A stretch of 64,000 bases of DNA. It comes from Acidobacteriota bacterium. GTDB lineage: Bacteria > Acidobacteriota > Holophagae > Holophagales > Holophagaceae. Below the pieces are notes generated by a model, which saw only the letters and a program-made list of their open reading frames with translations, was not told the DNA's origin and did not search any database. The DNA is taken from positions 124,001-188,000 of the forward strand of contig JACQZU010000024.1 in the NCBI GenBank assembly GCA_016213735.1, written 5' to 3'. Position numbers and translations under genes: made by a program. This document shows, piece after piece, positions 25,466-31,071 of this stretch (position 1 is its first letter; every line of letters starts with the position of its first letter).

Positions 25466-26752
25466 CTAACCCAGCGCCGCCTTCAGCGCCTCGAAATCGT
25501 TGGGAAGATCCTTCGAGAGCAGGGGCTTCGCCACGGCCTGCGCCAGCGCGGCGGGCAATTCGACCTCCGTGCCGAGGATCGGTCCCAGGCGGTCGGCGAA
25601 CTTGGCGGGGTGGGCGGTGCCCAGGAAGAGGCCCGTCTCGGTGATGCCCAGCCGCTCCCGCATGACGCCGTAGGCCACGGCGGCGTGGGGATCCGCCTGG
25701 TAGCCCAGGCCCTTCAACTCCCGGAGCACGAAGCCGGTCTCCGCGTCGGAGAGGTGGCCCCAGCGGAAGGCCTGGCGAAGGGCGGAAGGGTCGTCGCCGT
25801 GCAGCCGGGAGATCCGCTCCCAGTTGTTCGGCGCCCCCACGTCCATGGCGTTGGAAAGGGTCTCCACGGAGGCCCGGGGGCTGTACGCCCCGCCGTCCAG
25901 GTAGTCCGGCACGGTGGTGTTGGCGTTGGTGGCGATGACGAAGGCCCGCACGGGCAGGCCCATGCGGTGGGCCAGCACGCCGGCGCAGAGGTTTCCGAAA
26001 TTGCCGCTGGGCACCACGAAGACGGGAGGATCGCCGATCCCCGCGTCCCGCAGGAGGGCGACCCCATCCCAGTAGTAGAGCACCTGGGCCAGGAGGCGGG
26101 CGATGTTGATGCTGTTGGCGGAGGTGAGGCCGAGCCGGGCGCTGAGCTCGGCGTCCGCGAAGGCCGCCTTGGCCAGGGCCTGGCAGTCGTCGAAGCTCCC
26201 GTCCACCGCCAGGGCCTGGACGTTGCCGCCCAGGGTGGCGAACTGGCGCTCCTGCAGCTCCGAGATGCGGCCCTTGGGGTAGAGCACCACGGCCCGGAAT
26301 CCCGGCAGACCGTGGAAGGCCGATGCCACCGCGCTGCCCGTGTCGCCGCTGGTGGCCGTGAGGATGGTGCGGTCCTTTCCGTCCCGGGCCCGCAGCCAGG
26401 CCAGCACCCGGGCCAGGAATCGGGCGCCGAAATCCTTGAAGGCCAGGGTGGGCCCGTGGAAGAGCTCCAAGGCGTAGCAGCGGGGGGCCACCCGCACGAG
26501 GGAGACGGGAAAATCGAAGGCTGAGGCGGAGATGGCGCCCAGGTCGTCCAGGCCCATCTCGTCCCCCAGGAGGCGCCCGAGGATCTCCTTCCGCCGCGCC
26601 TGGGGAGACAGGTGCTCCAGGAGGTGGTCCGGGTCCGCGAAGCAGGGGACGGGGTCGGGCAGGTAGAGTCCCCCCCCCGGCGCCAGGCTGCGCCCCACGG
26701 CCTCCAGGAAGGTGGCGCGGTGCTTCGGGTCCCGGGTGCTGACGAGGCGCAT
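25466..26752 (-). CDS. thrC: Threonine synthase
   Basis: 428 residues. It converts O-phosphohomoserine to threonine with PLP. The PLP lysine is in the segment GPTLAFKDFGARF (about 100-112). ATSGDTGSAVASAF and the GNFGNLCAG phosphate-binding loop are intact. Its ATG overlaps the thrB stop by 1 bp (TGATG), so it is the last gene of a coupled thrABC operon. Confidence 0.97.
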   Translation of the reverse strand: MRLVSTRDPKHRATFLEAVGRSLAPGGGLYLPDPVPCFADPDHLLEHLSPQARRKEILGRLLGDEMGLDDLGAISASAFDFPVSLVRVAPRCYALELFHGPTLAFKDFGARFLARVLAWLRARDGKDRTILTATSGDTGSAVASAFHGLPGFRAVVLYPKGRISELQERQFATLGGNVQALAVDGSFDDCQALAKAAFADAELSARLGLTSANSINIARLLAQVLYYWDGVALLRDAGIGDPPVFVVPSGNFGNLCAGVLAHRMGLPVRAFVIATNANTTVPDYLDGGAYSPRASVETLSNAMDVGAPNNWERISRLHGDDPSALRQAFRWGHLSDAETGFVLRELKGLGYQADPHAAVAYGVMRERLGITETGLFLGTAHPAKFADRLGPILGTEVELPAALAQAVAKPLLSKDLPNDFEALKAALG

Positions 26753-27708
26753 CAGAGGATTCTCGCCCCAAGTGCGTCGAGATGACAGATCCAGGCATGG
26801 CTCTCCAGGCCGTGACCCCGGAACGCGGCCTGCATGGACCCCTGCACGGCCTCGGCCCGGTCCTCCCCGGCCACGGCGAAGGCGGAGGGTCCGCTGCCGC
26901 TGAGGCTTGCGCCGAAGGCCCCCTCCGCCAGGGCCCGGGCCTTGGCCTCGGGGAAGCCCGGAACCAGGCCCGCCCGGTGGGGCTCCACGAGCAGGTCCCG
27001 GAGGCTCAGGGCCAGCAGGGCGCGGTCCCTCGTATGGAGCGCGTGCACGAGGGCGGCGAGGTTCTGGCCCCAGGCCACGGTCTTCCCCAGGGGCACGGCC
27101 GGGGGCAGCACCGCCCGGCTGCGGGCGGTGGGAAGTTCGAAATCAGGATGCACCACCACCACCTGCAGGTCCTCGAACCAGGGCAGGGAGCGGCTGGCCA
27201 GGGGCTGCCCGGGGCGCCGGCCCGGAACGATGAGCTGCAGGCCCCCGGCGAGGCTGGGGGCCACGTTGTCCAGGTGGACGCCCCCGGAGAAGATGCCCTC
27301 CGCCCGGCCCGCCAGGTCCAGGACCTCGTTGCGGGCCAGGGGCTCGCCGGCGGCGGCCTGGAGCGCCGTCAGGGCGGCCACGATGGAGCTGGCGCTGGAG
27401 CCCAGGCCGGAATTCACTGGAAGGTTCTTGTGCAGGACGAAGCGCGCCGGCCCCGCCTCCAGGCCCCTGGACCGGAGGGCCTCGGCGTAGAGGCGGGCGG
27501 TGCGGAGGACCAGGTTGTCCTCGGGAGGACCCGGCAGGGTGGCGGCGTAGGGGCCCAGGATCTCCAGGCTGTCGGCCTCCGCGGGATGGACTTCCACCAG
27601 ATCGCCTAAAAGGCTGCCGTCCCGGGGAGCCAGGGCGGCCCCCAGGAGGTCGAAGCCCGCGGCGAAATTGCCGATGCTGGCCGGGGCGTAGGCCCGGAGG
27701 GAGCTCAT
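26752..27708 (-). CDS. thrB: Homoserine kinase
   Basis: 318 residues, GHMP kinase family. It phosphorylates homoserine before ThrC. The ATP-binding motif LPVNSGLGSSASS is clear near residue 95, and a C-terminal Gly-rich loop GASLSGSGPSAFAV is present. It overlaps thrA by 4 bp upstream (ATGA) and thrC by 1 bp downstream. Confidence 0.96.
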   Translation of the reverse strand: MSSLRAYAPASIGNFAAGFDLLGAALAPRDGSLLGDLVEVHPAEADSLEILGPYAATLPGPPEDNLVLRTARLYAEALRSRGLEAGPARFVLHKNLPVNSGLGSSASSIVAALTALQAAAGEPLARNEVLDLAGRAEGIFSGGVHLDNVAPSLAGGLQLIVPGRRPGQPLASRSLPWFEDLQVVVVHPDFELPTARSRAVLPPAVPLGKTVAWGQNLAALVHALHTRDRALLALSLRDLLVEPHRAGLVPGFPEAKARALAEGAFGASLSGSGPSAFAVAGEDRAEAVQGSMQAAFRGHGLESHAWICHLDALGARIL

Positions 27709-30164
27709 CGCAGCCCCAGTCCCAGCCGCAGCACGTCCGAGAGGACCCCTGCGGCGGTGACTTCCGCGCCGGCGCCGTAGCCGCGGATCACCATGGGTCG
27801 CGGGCTGTAGTGGGCCGTGAGGACGGAGAGGGCGTTCTCGCCGCCCTGAATCGGGAAGAGGGGATGATCAGGCCCCGCCTCCAGCAATCCTGTGCGGGCG
27901 CCGTCGGGGCCCACGCTCCCGGCGTAGCGGAGCACCTTGCCCTGGGCCCGGAGGGCCTCCACGCGTTTCCGGAAGGGCTCGTCCAGCTGGGGCAGCCGCG
28001 CCACGAAGGAATCCACGCTGCCGGAGTCGTCGAAGTCGGCGGGCAGCAGGCCCTCCAGCTTCACGTCCGAGGGCTCCAGCATCATGCCTGCCTCCCGGGC
28101 CAGGATCAGGACCTTTCGGGCCACGTCCGCGCCGCTGAGGTCGTCCCGGGGGTCGGGCTCGGTGAAACCCTTCTGCATGGCGTCCTTCACCGCATCCGAA
28201 AGGAGCACCCCCTCCCCCAGGCGTCCCAGGATGTAGCTCAAGGAGCCCGAAAGGACTCCCTCGAAGCGCAACAGCCGGTCCCCCGCGGCCATGAGTCCCT
28301 TCACCGTGTCGATGACCGGCAGGCCTGCGCCCACGTGGGTCTCGTAGTAGAAGCGGCGGCGGGACCGGGCGGACGCCTCCCGGATGGCGCGGTAGAGCGC
28401 GAGGCTCCCGGCGTTGGCCTTCTTGTTCGCGCTCACGGCGTGCAGCCCGGCGGCGATGATCCCCGGGGTGGCCTCGGCGAGCACGGGGCTGGCGCTGCAG
28501 TCCACGAAGACCGCCACCTCGGGCCGGCGGACCCCGATGGAGCTTCGCAGCCGCTCCAGGCTGGAGGGTTCCTCCGAAGCCTGGAGGCGGGCCCTGGCCT
28601 CGCCTGGGGCGATGCCGGCCTCCTCCAGCACCATGCGGCGGGAATTGGCCACGCCGCACAGGCGCAGGTCCAGCCCGGCGGCGGCCAGCTCGGGAATCTG
28701 CCGGTCCAGGAGCTCCAGGAGCTTGCTGCCCACCAGGCCCACGCCGAAGAGGTAGAGTTCCAGCGTCTCCCGCGTGCCGAAGCAGCGGCGGTGGGCGGCC
28801 CGCAGGCCCCGGGGTCCGTCCTCCCCGGAGAGCACGAGGGAGATGTTGCGCTCCCCGCTGCCCTGGGCGATGGCGATGATGTTGCATCCCGCGTCCGCCA
28901 TGGCGGAGGTGAAGGCCGCGGCCATTCCCACCCGGGTCCGCATGCCGTCGCCCACGGCGCTGAGGATGCCCAGCCCTGGCCGCAGCTCCACCTTCTCCAC
29001 CATCCCCGCCGCCAGCTCGGCCCGGAAGGCCTCCTGCAGGGCCTGGGCGGCGCGTTCCCCGTCCGACTCCTTCACCACGATGCAGATGCTCACCTCGCTG
29101 CTGCCCTGGGTGATGAGGACGACGCTGATCTCCTGCCTCGCCAGGGCTCCGAAGGCCCGTGCCGCCACGCCGGGGACGCCGGGCATGCCGGGCCCCCGCA
29201 GGTCCACCAGGGCCAGCCCCGGCAGCCAGCTGAGGCCCCGAACCCCCTGGGGGGGATCTCCCGCCTTGGCCGTCACCAGGCTGCCCGGCAGCTGGGGCCG
29301 GAAACTGTCCCGGATGCTCACGGGGATGCCCTTCTCCCGGGCCGGGGCGATGGTCTTGGGATGAAGCACCTTCGCGCCGAAGTGGGCCAGCTCCATGGCC
29401 TCCTCGAAGCTCAGCTCGGGAAGGGGGAAGGCTTCGGGCACGATGCGGGGGTCGGCGCTGTAGATCCCGTCCACGTCGGTCCAGATTTCCAGAAGGGCCG
29501 CGTCCAGGGCCGAGGCGGCCAGGGCGGCGCTGAAGTCCGAGCCGCCCCGCCCCAGCAGGACGACCTTGCCCGAGGCATCCCCCCCGAAGAAGCCCGGCAG
29601 AAGCACCAGCCGGTCTCCCCCGTCCCGAAGGGGCCCGAAGCGCTCGCGGATCCCCTCCAGCTGCGGGGTGGCCTCCAGGGGGTCCCCCGCGCAGAGGACC
29701 AGGTCCCTGGGGTCCAGCAGCCTCGCCGGCAGCCCCCGCTGCCGCAGCAGTTCCGCCAGGAGGGCGCAGGAGGCCCGTTCCCCGAAGGAGTAGAGCAGGG
29801 CCGTCACGCCCGGGCTGCACTCCTGGAGCAGGCTGATCCCCCGCAGCAGCTTGGCCAGGTCGGCGCCCAGGGCCTCGAGGGCCTCGCCGCAACGCTGTTC
29901 CAGGCCCAGGCTCCGGGCCAGCTCCTCGTGGCGGGCCCGGAAGGTCGAAAGGGGACCCTCCGGGTCCTCTCCCTTCGCCGCGCCCTCCGCAGCCTGCACC
30001 AGCAGGTTGGTCACCCCGGCCAGGGCCGAGGCCACCAGACAGACGCGGCCCTCCTTCAGGGCGGCCTCCGCCAGGTCGGCGATGGTGTTCATGCGCTCCG
30101 GGCCGTTGACGGAGGTGCCGCCGAACTTCATGACGCGCCAGGACTGTTTCGCGGAGGGATTCAT
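27705..30164 (-). CDS. thrA: Bifunctional aspartokinase / homoserine dehydrogenase
   Basis: 819 residues, the usual length of ThrA. The aspartokinase part has KFGGTSV (13-19) and FGGDASGKVVLLGRGGSDFSA with the substrate-binding residues. ACT-type regulatory repeats are at about 315-460. The homoserine dehydrogenase part starts near 465 (LYLFGVGLVGSKLLELL) and has VSANKKANAG and the catalytic-region EPDPRDDLSGADVARK. It catalyses the first and third steps from aspartate towards threonine. Feedback by threonine is expected from the ACT domains. Transcription is probably controlled by the attenuator at 30185-30329. Confidence 0.97.
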   Translation of the reverse strand: MNPSAKQSWRVMKFGGTSVNGPERMNTIADLAEAALKEGRVCLVASALAGVTNLLVQAAEGAAKGEDPEGPLSTFRARHEELARSLGLEQRCGEALEALGADLAKLLRGISLLQECSPGVTALLYSFGERASCALLAELLRQRGLPARLLDPRDLVLCAGDPLEATPQLEGIRERFGPLRDGGDRLVLLPGFFGGDASGKVVLLGRGGSDFSAALAASALDAALLEIWTDVDGIYSADPRIVPEAFPLPELSFEEAMELAHFGAKVLHPKTIAPAREKGIPVSIRDSFRPQLPGSLVTAKAGDPPQGVRGLSWLPGLALVDLRGPGMPGVPGVAARAFGALARQEISVVLITQGSSEVSICIVVKESDGERAAQALQEAFRAELAAGMVEKVELRPGLGILSAVGDGMRTRVGMAAAFTSAMADAGCNIIAIAQGSGERNISLVLSGEDGPRGLRAAHRRCFGTRETLELYLFGVGLVGSKLLELLDRQIPELAAAGLDLRLCGVANSRRMVLEEAGIAPGEARARLQASEEPSSLERLRSSIGVRRPEVAVFVDCSASPVLAEATPGIIAAGLHAVSANKKANAGSLALYRAIREASARSRRRFYYETHVGAGLPVIDTVKGLMAAGDRLLRFEGVLSGSLSYILGRLGEGVLLSDAVKDAMQKGFTEPDPRDDLSGADVARKVLILAREAGMMLEPSDVKLEGLLPADFDDSGSVDSFVARLPQLDEPFRKRVEALRAQGKVLRYAGSVGPDGARTGLLEAGPDHPLFPIQGGENALSVLTAHYSPRPMVIRGYGAGAEVTAAGVLSDVLRLGLGLR

Positions 30165-30184: not shown

Positions 30185-30237
30185 GGCCCCGCGTCTGCGG
30201 GGCCGGTCGGGGGAGGAGAGCGTCCTAGACCAGCCCC
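30185..30237 (-). promoter_or_regulatory. thr operon attenuator: antiterminator and terminator arms
   Basis: On the minus strand the terminator stem is GGCCCCGC (30204-30197) with GCGGGGCC (30192-30185) around a 4-nt loop, ending 20 bp before the thrA ATG. The segment GACCGGCCCC (30208-30199), which includes the left terminator arm, can instead pair with GGGGCTGGTC (30237-30228). The latter is made of the last codons of the leader peptide, with one G-U pair. These two structures exclude each other, as in classical attenuation. The T-run after the terminator is weak (TTCGTATTT). Confidence 0.75.
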
Positions 30238-30329
30238 TGGATCCGAATGCCGGTGGTGGTATTGCCGGACAGGCCCCTTCCGCGGTGCCCGTGGGCGCCT
30301 CCGGCGGGGCAGGGGCAGATCGAACGCAT
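30225..30329 (-). CDS. thrL: thr operon leader peptide
   Basis: 34 codons on the minus strand, start ATG 30329 with GAAGGTAGAG upstream and stop TAG at 30227-30225. The C-terminal part is GNTTTGIRIQGLV: three ACC threonine codons in a row, then two isoleucine codons, Leu and Val. Stalling at these codons when threonyl- or isoleucyl-tRNA is scarce would leave the segment at 30237-30228 free to form the antiterminator. It lies 60 bp before thrA. It resembles the E. coli thr leader in logic (Thr and Ile codons) but not in sequence. Confidence 0.75.
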   Translation of the reverse strand: MRSICPCPAGGAHGHRGRGLSGNTTTGIRIQGLV

Positions 30330-30423
30330 GACTCTACCTTCGCTGAACCGGGGCCCGGGCGTCAACCCGGCTGCCCTCGTGGATCTTTCCACCCCTGCTA
30401 CGCTCGAATCCCGGAGGCGCGCC

Positions 30424-31071
30424 ATGTCCCTGGTCCTCGGCCACCGCGGCCTCTCCTCGCAGCACCTGGAGAACAGCATGGAGGCTTTCCGGGCCGCCCT
30501 GGCGGCGGGCATGGACGGCTTCGAACTGGACGCCCAGCCCACCGCCGACGGCGTCTGCGTGGTGATGCACGACGAGGATTTCCGGCGCACCTGCCGCGGC
30601 GCCGGCTCTGTGCGCTCAGCCAGGGCCGGGTCCATGCCCCTGCTGAAGAACGGCGAGTCCATCCCCCGCCTCGTGGACGCGCTGGAGCTTCCGGCCAGGC
30701 TCGTCAACGTCGAGCTGAAGGGAGAGCCCGGGTGGCAGCAGGCCCTTGCGGCGGTGGAAGCCGCCGACGCCCTGGACCGCGTGCTCTTCAGCAGCTTCGA
30801 GCCCAGCGAAGTGCTCCAGCTCTGGAACGCCTGTCCCCGCGTCCGCTGCGGGTTCCTCTGGGACCGCGCCGAGGCCCTGGACCTCACCCCCGAGGAACTG
30901 GCCGACCTTCCTGCTGCCCTCTGGCTGCACCCTCCACTCAAGGCCGTGATGGCCCGCCCCGCCCAGTGGGCGCCCTACGCATCCCGCCTCGCCGTGTGGG
31001 GCATGACGTCCGCCGCCGAAGCCAAGGCCCTGCCCTTCGAGCCCGCGGTGGTCATCGCCGACGGTTGGTGA
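30424..31071 (+). CDS. Glycerophosphodiester phosphodiesterase
   Basis: 215 residues from ATG 30424, with GGAGG 7 bp upstream. The family start LGHRGLSSQHLENSMEAF carries the catalytic His-Arg and metal Glu. The segments GFELDAQPTADGVCVVMHDE and VNVELKG complete the active site (Glu/Asp and His). It hydrolyses glycerophosphodiesters to glycerol-3-phosphate and an alcohol. No signal peptide, so it is cytoplasmic. An extended -10 like TGCTACGCT at 30396-30404 may drive it. It is divergent from thrA and convergent with the Npt-like transporter. Confidence 0.93.
   Translation: MSLVLGHRGLSSQHLENSMEAFRAALAAGMDGFELDAQPTADGVCVVMHDEDFRRTCRGAGSVRSARAGSMPLLKNGESIPRLVDALELPARLVNVELKGEPGWQQALAAVEAADALDRVLFSSFEPSEVLQLWNACPRVRCGFLWDRAEALDLTPEELADLPAALWLHPPLKAVMARPAQWAPYASRLAVWGMTSAAEAKALPFEPAVVIADGW

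Follow-up and report, generated by a model that had tools for sequence, protein, structure and literature searches.

A predicted leaderless, ribosome-mediated threonine attenuator upstream of thrABC is conserved across the Holophagaceae

The window, a stretch of 64,000 nucleotides from a member of the Holophagaceae, carries a thrABC operon on its minus strand, preceded by a short ORF with clustered Thr codons and by two alternative RNA stems. From the sequence it is very probable that thrABC is controlled by ribosome-mediated transcription attenuation, responding to the supply of threonyl- (and isoleucyl-) tRNA. A sequence-only reading of the window had proposed this, namely an attenuator of the E. 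coli thr type in a probable acidobacterium. Conservation and covariation in 8 genera support the proposal, and the source was rightly recognized, as Holophagaceae belong to Acidobacteriota.

The genes of the operon were identified with NCBIfam equivalog models:
25466..26752, minus strand: thrC, threonine synthase (TIGR00260, 258.9 bits, cut-off 167)
26752..27708, minus strand: thrB, homoserine kinase (TIGR00191, 222.5 bits, cut-off 168)
27705..30164, minus strand: thrA, bifunctional aspartokinase/homoserine dehydrogenase I (NF006959, 921.6 bits, cut-off 726)
30424..31071, plus strand: divergent GDPD-family gene (PF03009, 75.5 bits)

Because the GDPD-family neighbor is divergent, there is no co-directional upstream gene that a terminator in front of thrA could serve. 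The genome, like those of most relatives, has no homoserine dehydrogenase besides ThrA, so that the supply of Thr, Ile and Met hinges on this enzyme there. The following elements lie between the two divergent genes:
30225..30329, minus strand: leader peptide ORF of 34 codons plus TAG, MRSICPCPAGGAHGHRGRGLSGNTTTGIRIQGLV (direct reading; C-terminal Thr/Ile-rich part kept in 55/56 relatives)
30252..30260, minus strand: Thr control codons ACC ACC ACC (read from the sequence)
30248-30246 and 30242-30240, minus strand: Ile codons ATT and ATC (read from the sequence)
30228..30237, minus strand: region 2, the 5' strand of the antiterminator, GGGGCTGGTC, last 10 coding nt of the leader (duplex energy against shuffles)
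30199..30208, minus strand: region 3, GACCGGCCCC, overlapping the left arm of the terminator (pairing with region 2)
30185..30204, minus strand: intrinsic-terminator-like hairpin GGCCCCGC-AGAC-GCGGGGCC (-18.3 kcal/mol; terminator at the equivalent place in 55/55 leaders)

The leader ORF runs from the ATG at 30329-30327 to the TAG at 30227-30225, has the C-terminal part …GNTTTGIRIQGLV and ends 60 nt upstream of thrA. It is the 34-codon leader with three consecutive Thr codons of the sequence-only reading. The two Ile codons reported to follow the Thr run are present, but adjoin neither each other nor the run, the codon order after the ACC codons being Gly, Ile, Arg, Ile. The leader had also been said to end inside 30237-30228; this segment comprises its last 10 coding nt, but the ORF stops just past it. 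Region 2 forms nine Watson-Crick pairs and one G-U pair with 30208-30199, a segment previously described as the left arm of the terminator. It overlaps that arm, whereas the stem itself, a perfect 8-bp GC stem with the loop AGAC, is 30204-30197/30192-30185. The two pairings are indeed mutually exclusive, since the 30237-30228/30208-30199 duplex precludes the terminator stem. An interrupted T tract, TTCGTATTT (30184-30176), lies directly 3' of the terminator.

A terminator search in the window leader found one terminator vs 0.2 expected in shuffles, and the antiterminator had an energy of -25.2 vs -17.8 kcal/mol in dinucleotide shuffles (p 0.003). The single-sequence fold energy of the leader is weakly unusual (z -1.71), and the case therefore rests on comparison.

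The comparison set consisted of 76 further genomes of the same family, none of them from the window genome's own genus, and the upstream regions of all 56 full-length thrA loci of the family (8 genera) were read. The same anatomy, with a Thr/Ile(/Met)-rich leader, a terminator and an antiterminator at the leader stop, was observed in 55 of these loci. Examples of the leaders are NGITTTTHTAVRGT (genus g3), GTIMMIGTRPARG (g4), ATTTTTTTAHMARPV (g6), SMTMIMTTNLPPGLA (g7) and IMTTTTTGTHPGAGTA (g9). The leader stop lies 60-104 nt upstream of thrA and 17-36 nt upstream of a GC-rich hairpin, whose tail is T-rich in nearly all 55 and poor in three related MAGs (L045, L048, L049). The sole exception among the 56 is genome G053, in which thrA has no leader and directly adjoins what, by eye, looks like the end of a metX gene. 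Note that the thrA matches of G053 and G054 (genus g5; L194, L195) contain one in-frame TGA; a Thr leader is present upstream of thrA in G054, unlike in G053.

Codon usage was analyzed in a control zone, defined as the 16 codons preceding the last four leader codons. Across the family, Thr, Ile and Met account for 0.30, 0.08 and 0.07 of the codons in the leader frame; the two remaining frames gave 0.07/0.03/0.01 and 0.01/0/0. The three amino acids together had 57 codons in a set of eight genus representatives vs 15.9 +/- 3.6 in shuffles (maximum 28 in 2000).

Of the 55 leaders, 49 had an antiterminator stronger than that of their dinucleotide shuffles (p < 0.05), always around the leader stop; the pairing was not significant in one of two g4 members, in the g7 and g10 members and in one g3 member. 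As a test of covariation independent of alignment choices, we compared matched with swapped pairs. Region 2 paired with its own region 3 at -22.8 kcal/mol and at -18.2 kcal/mol when regions were swapped between genera, with 0 of 20,000 permutations as good. Column-by-column covariation on a MAFFT alignment was set aside, as the register of the antiterminator differs among genera. Conservation of the control codons and covariation of both stems, named in the sequence-only reading as a check on its proposal, were found across the 8 genera.

Ahead of the leader there are two promoter-like elements, not mentioned in the sequence-only reading:
30360..30365, minus strand: -35-like element TTGACG (TTGAC conserved in 53/55 family loci)
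30336..30341, minus strand: -10-like element GAAGGT (N-A-N-N-N-T), 6 nt before the leader ATG (conserved position)

TTGAC occurs in 53 of the 55 upstream regions vs 9% in shuffles (TTGAC alone). Counted from the first T of TTGAC, the in-frame leader ATG follows after exactly 35 nt in 42 loci and after exactly 36 nt in 9, making 51/55 in all. Two of the remaining four loci have -35 boxes of the TTGCGG/TTGCGA type with the ATG at the same distance by eye, and one reaches the contig end. GAAGGT is a poor match to TATAAT; the relatives have GATGAT, AAAAGT, GATGGT, CAGGCT and similar hexamers at this position, and its conservation points to a -10 element. Since the 35/36-nt spacing fits the usual sigma-70 spacing, +1 would coincide with the A of the AUG or with a neighboring nucleotide. 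Transcription in the window is predicted to start at or next to 30329, and the leader mRNA is likely leaderless, starting at its own AUG. Leaderless genes make up ~13% in Acidobacteria according to a survey (PMC3160421). A transcription start downstream of the leader had been considered evidence against attenuation; the only conserved promoter-like signal is upstream of it.

The same attenuator might instead be led by a Shine-Dalgarno sequence and transcribed from a more upstream promoter, the leaderless geometry in the window being coincidental. An AAGG (30340-30337) lies 7 nt ahead of the ATG, and the poor -10 hexamer would be in keeping with such an arrangement. However, the TTGAC-ATG spacing of 35-36 nt recurs in 51/55 relatives, most of them without AAGG at that place, and in the trpE leader of the same genome a TTGACA precedes the ATG by exactly 35 nt. 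We therefore give this version a small, though not negligible, chance.

In the leaderless attenuation model, RNA polymerase would initiate at or beside the leader AUG, and a 70S ribosome would begin leader translation at the 5' end of the mRNA. With charged tRNA plentiful, the ribosome at the TAG would mask region 2, allowing region 3 to join the terminator, and transcription would end upstream of thrA. A shortage of Thr or Ile would make the ribosome stall at ACC ACC ACC or at the Ile codons, and region 2 would stay unmasked; 2:3 pairing would then precede synthesis of the right terminator arm, resulting in read-through into thrABC. All the sequence-level features of classical attenuators that were examined are present: the control codons are clustered in a short ORF upstream of a biosynthetic operon, the exclusive stems are placed so that a stop-bound ribosome prevents the antiterminator, and the predicted promoter is upstream of the leader ORF. 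The ORF, the codons, the alternative stems, the promoter geometry, the conservation and the covariation are all seen in the sequence. From them we infer leader translation, termination, the Thr/Ile response with its dependence on leader translation, and the exact start site.

In a fold of the full window leader RNA, region 2 pairs with an upstream segment (1:2 stem), and thus the terminator is favored by default. In an equilibrium model of the window that contains both arms, the terminator prevails although region 2 is left free (P 0.99), so that switching needs a kinetic, co-transcriptional argument. For the family as a whole, switching was likewise not reproduced by equilibrium folds that included both terminator arms (21/55), and a co-transcriptional version was used instead. 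With the ribosome modelled on the Thr codons, the left arm was sequestered before the right arm existed with a mean P of 0.84, compared with a mean of 0.20 for the ribosome at the leader stop. Switch-like behavior resulted in 54/55 leaders. In 44/55, including the window (-23.9 vs -18.3 kcal/mol), the antiterminator equaled or exceeded the terminator in stability. As the terminator often wins at equilibrium, the outcome depends on timing, just as in the textbook model.

Could the short ORF not be sensed at all, and instead boost thrA translation by reinitiation or coupling, with the hairpin serving as an mRNA-end or processing element? Short upstream ORFs close to genes are common in Acidobacteria (PMC4833913), but the 60-104 nt between leader stop and thrA are outside the reinitiation peak of 10-13 nt, a terminator stands in between, and the Thr/Ile codon bias is confined to the leader frame, making this very unlikely. 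A ligand- or protein-controlled attenuator (riboswitch, T-box or RNA-binding protein) with an incidental ORF is slightly less likely still. Terminator and antiterminator by themselves fit any attenuator, but neither a T-box or known riboswitch nor any other Rfam family matched the window at gathering score, and the leader had no relevant match even at E values up to 10. Moreover, the Thr/Ile bias is in frame and the position of the stop codon is locked to region 2. Chance formation of a Thr run and hairpins in GC-rich sequence, for which the modest fold z-score of the window leader might be cited, has a negligible probability, being already refuted by the 55/56 relatives, the covariation and the promoter geometry.

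The attenuator is well supported by comparison. Its principle is known, its place, the Holophagaceae, is new, and the predicted leaderless design is the most informative detail. A search of the open literature gave no description of a Thr attenuator from Acidobacteriota; an earlier prediction in subscription reviews is possible. The window shares with the E. coli thrL type (RF00506) the thrABC genes, the Thr/Ile control codons, region 2 at the leader stop and a terminator overlapping region 3, but the leader peptides differ. RF00506 (Thr_leader; >55 bits needed) had no match in the window or in the loci L006, L014, L023, L026, L108 and L109, and does not match Shewanella either; the positive control, Yersinia (L123), scored 108.7 bits. 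A complete, covarying Thr attenuator that runs through an acidobacterial family and is matched there by one for Trp escapes the Rfam model. The fixed distance between promoter and AUG provides a search rule: TTGAC, 35-37 nt, ATG, clustered codons, terminator.

The predicted promoter abuts the AUG in 51/55 Holophagaceae leaders vs 8/71 gamma-proteobacterial thr leaders (L113-L187). In these eight, among them the Alteromonas type, TTGAC and the leader ATG are likewise 35-36 nt apart. A leaderless design unique to the family was rejected in view of these eight and of examples in Actinobacteria and Sinorhizobium. In the trpL attenuator of Sinorhizobium meliloti, the leader mRNA starts with the leader peptide AUG (PMC7298713), as predicted for the window; it differs in sensing Trp rather than Thr, in belonging to an alpha-proteobacterium and in having a product that also acts in trans. 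The leuL1, trpL2 and thrL (before thrS) of S. lividans (PMC8079986) and the mycobacterial Cys uORFs (PMC4633059) are leaderless short ORFs with codons for the controlled amino acid. These belong to other genes and phyla, and several have no clear intrinsic terminator, unlike the window. Predicted leaderless translation would be linked here to amino-acid control beyond Actinobacteria and Rhizobia.

In the window's own genome, trpE is preceded by a Trp leader, MVRRPCSPSAAASKAWWWCAGSDGASEAL, with WWW codons, a terminator and TTGACA 35 nt before the ATG. This leader (AWWWCAGSDGASEAL), on contig C21 near 43.3-46.0 kb (L214, L218), looks leaderless. WWW leaders occur upstream of trpE in most trpE-bearing relatives, many with the 35-37 nt spacing. 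No leader was seen before leuA, hisG or ilvB at the places read in the same genome.

Beyond the Holophagaceae, most of the Acidobacteriota thrA loci read have no Thr leader. One exception, f82 (L095), has the Thr leader MMRPRELAIGAGCMTSTTTTPRASGGTGLA with TTGACA 36 nt before the ATG and a terminator. Another, family f24 (L098, L100, L107), has a Thr-rich leader upstream of thrA, e.g. TITRTTITTGDHSSG; its terminator, GGCCATCATCCGC…, is of unrelated sequence and complementary to GCGGATGA at the leader stop, possibly reflecting an independent origin.

Among named genomes, the closest ThrA outside the phylum are those of Myxococcus vastator and Pyxidicoccus (58-59% identical). In the ThrA tree, Holophagaceae group with Myxococcota and f82 (99% SH-aLRT), apart from the other Acidobacteriota tested, and this group is sister to the gamma-proteobacteria (100%). 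M. vastator and Pyxidicoccus (L108, L109) also have a Thr-rich leader, …TTTTTTSTTPRRARAV, ending in ARAV, with a GC-rich terminator, as here, and with TTGACT 37-38 nt before the ATG; they differ in phylum and in their longer Thr runs of up to 11 consecutive Thr codons. Thus, the Holophagaceae attenuator is not isolated, a comparable one accompanying a related ThrA in Myxococcaceae. As related ThrA and Thr leader occur together there, operon and attenuator probably moved together, and lateral exchange of both, in either direction, would be the simplest reading.

In the control zones of the eight representatives, 9 Met codons were counted, whereas shuffles gave 1.1. Met codons are enriched in several genera, though the leader of the window shows no such enrichment, and they are interleaved with Thr and Ile codons in several lineages (MTMIMTT, TIMMIGT, MTGMTGMT). 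As a trait of Holophagaceae only they were rejected, as some gamma-proteobacterial thr leaders have Met among their Thr and Ile codons (0.046 of codons). Nor do Met codons track the number of homoserine dehydrogenases in the genomes compared. Met sensing besides that of Thr and Ile is offered as a hypothesis only. More broadly, and quite tentatively, leaderless leaders might be the standard sensor of amino-acid operons in Holophagaceae (thr and trp at least), with some lineages reading Thr, Ile and Met together and the thr operon exchanged with Myxococcaceae along with its attenuator. In genus g3, the near-complete genomes G014, G024, G032, G033 and G036 are without a homoserine dehydrogenase match, which suggests Thr/Met auxotrophy within this genus.
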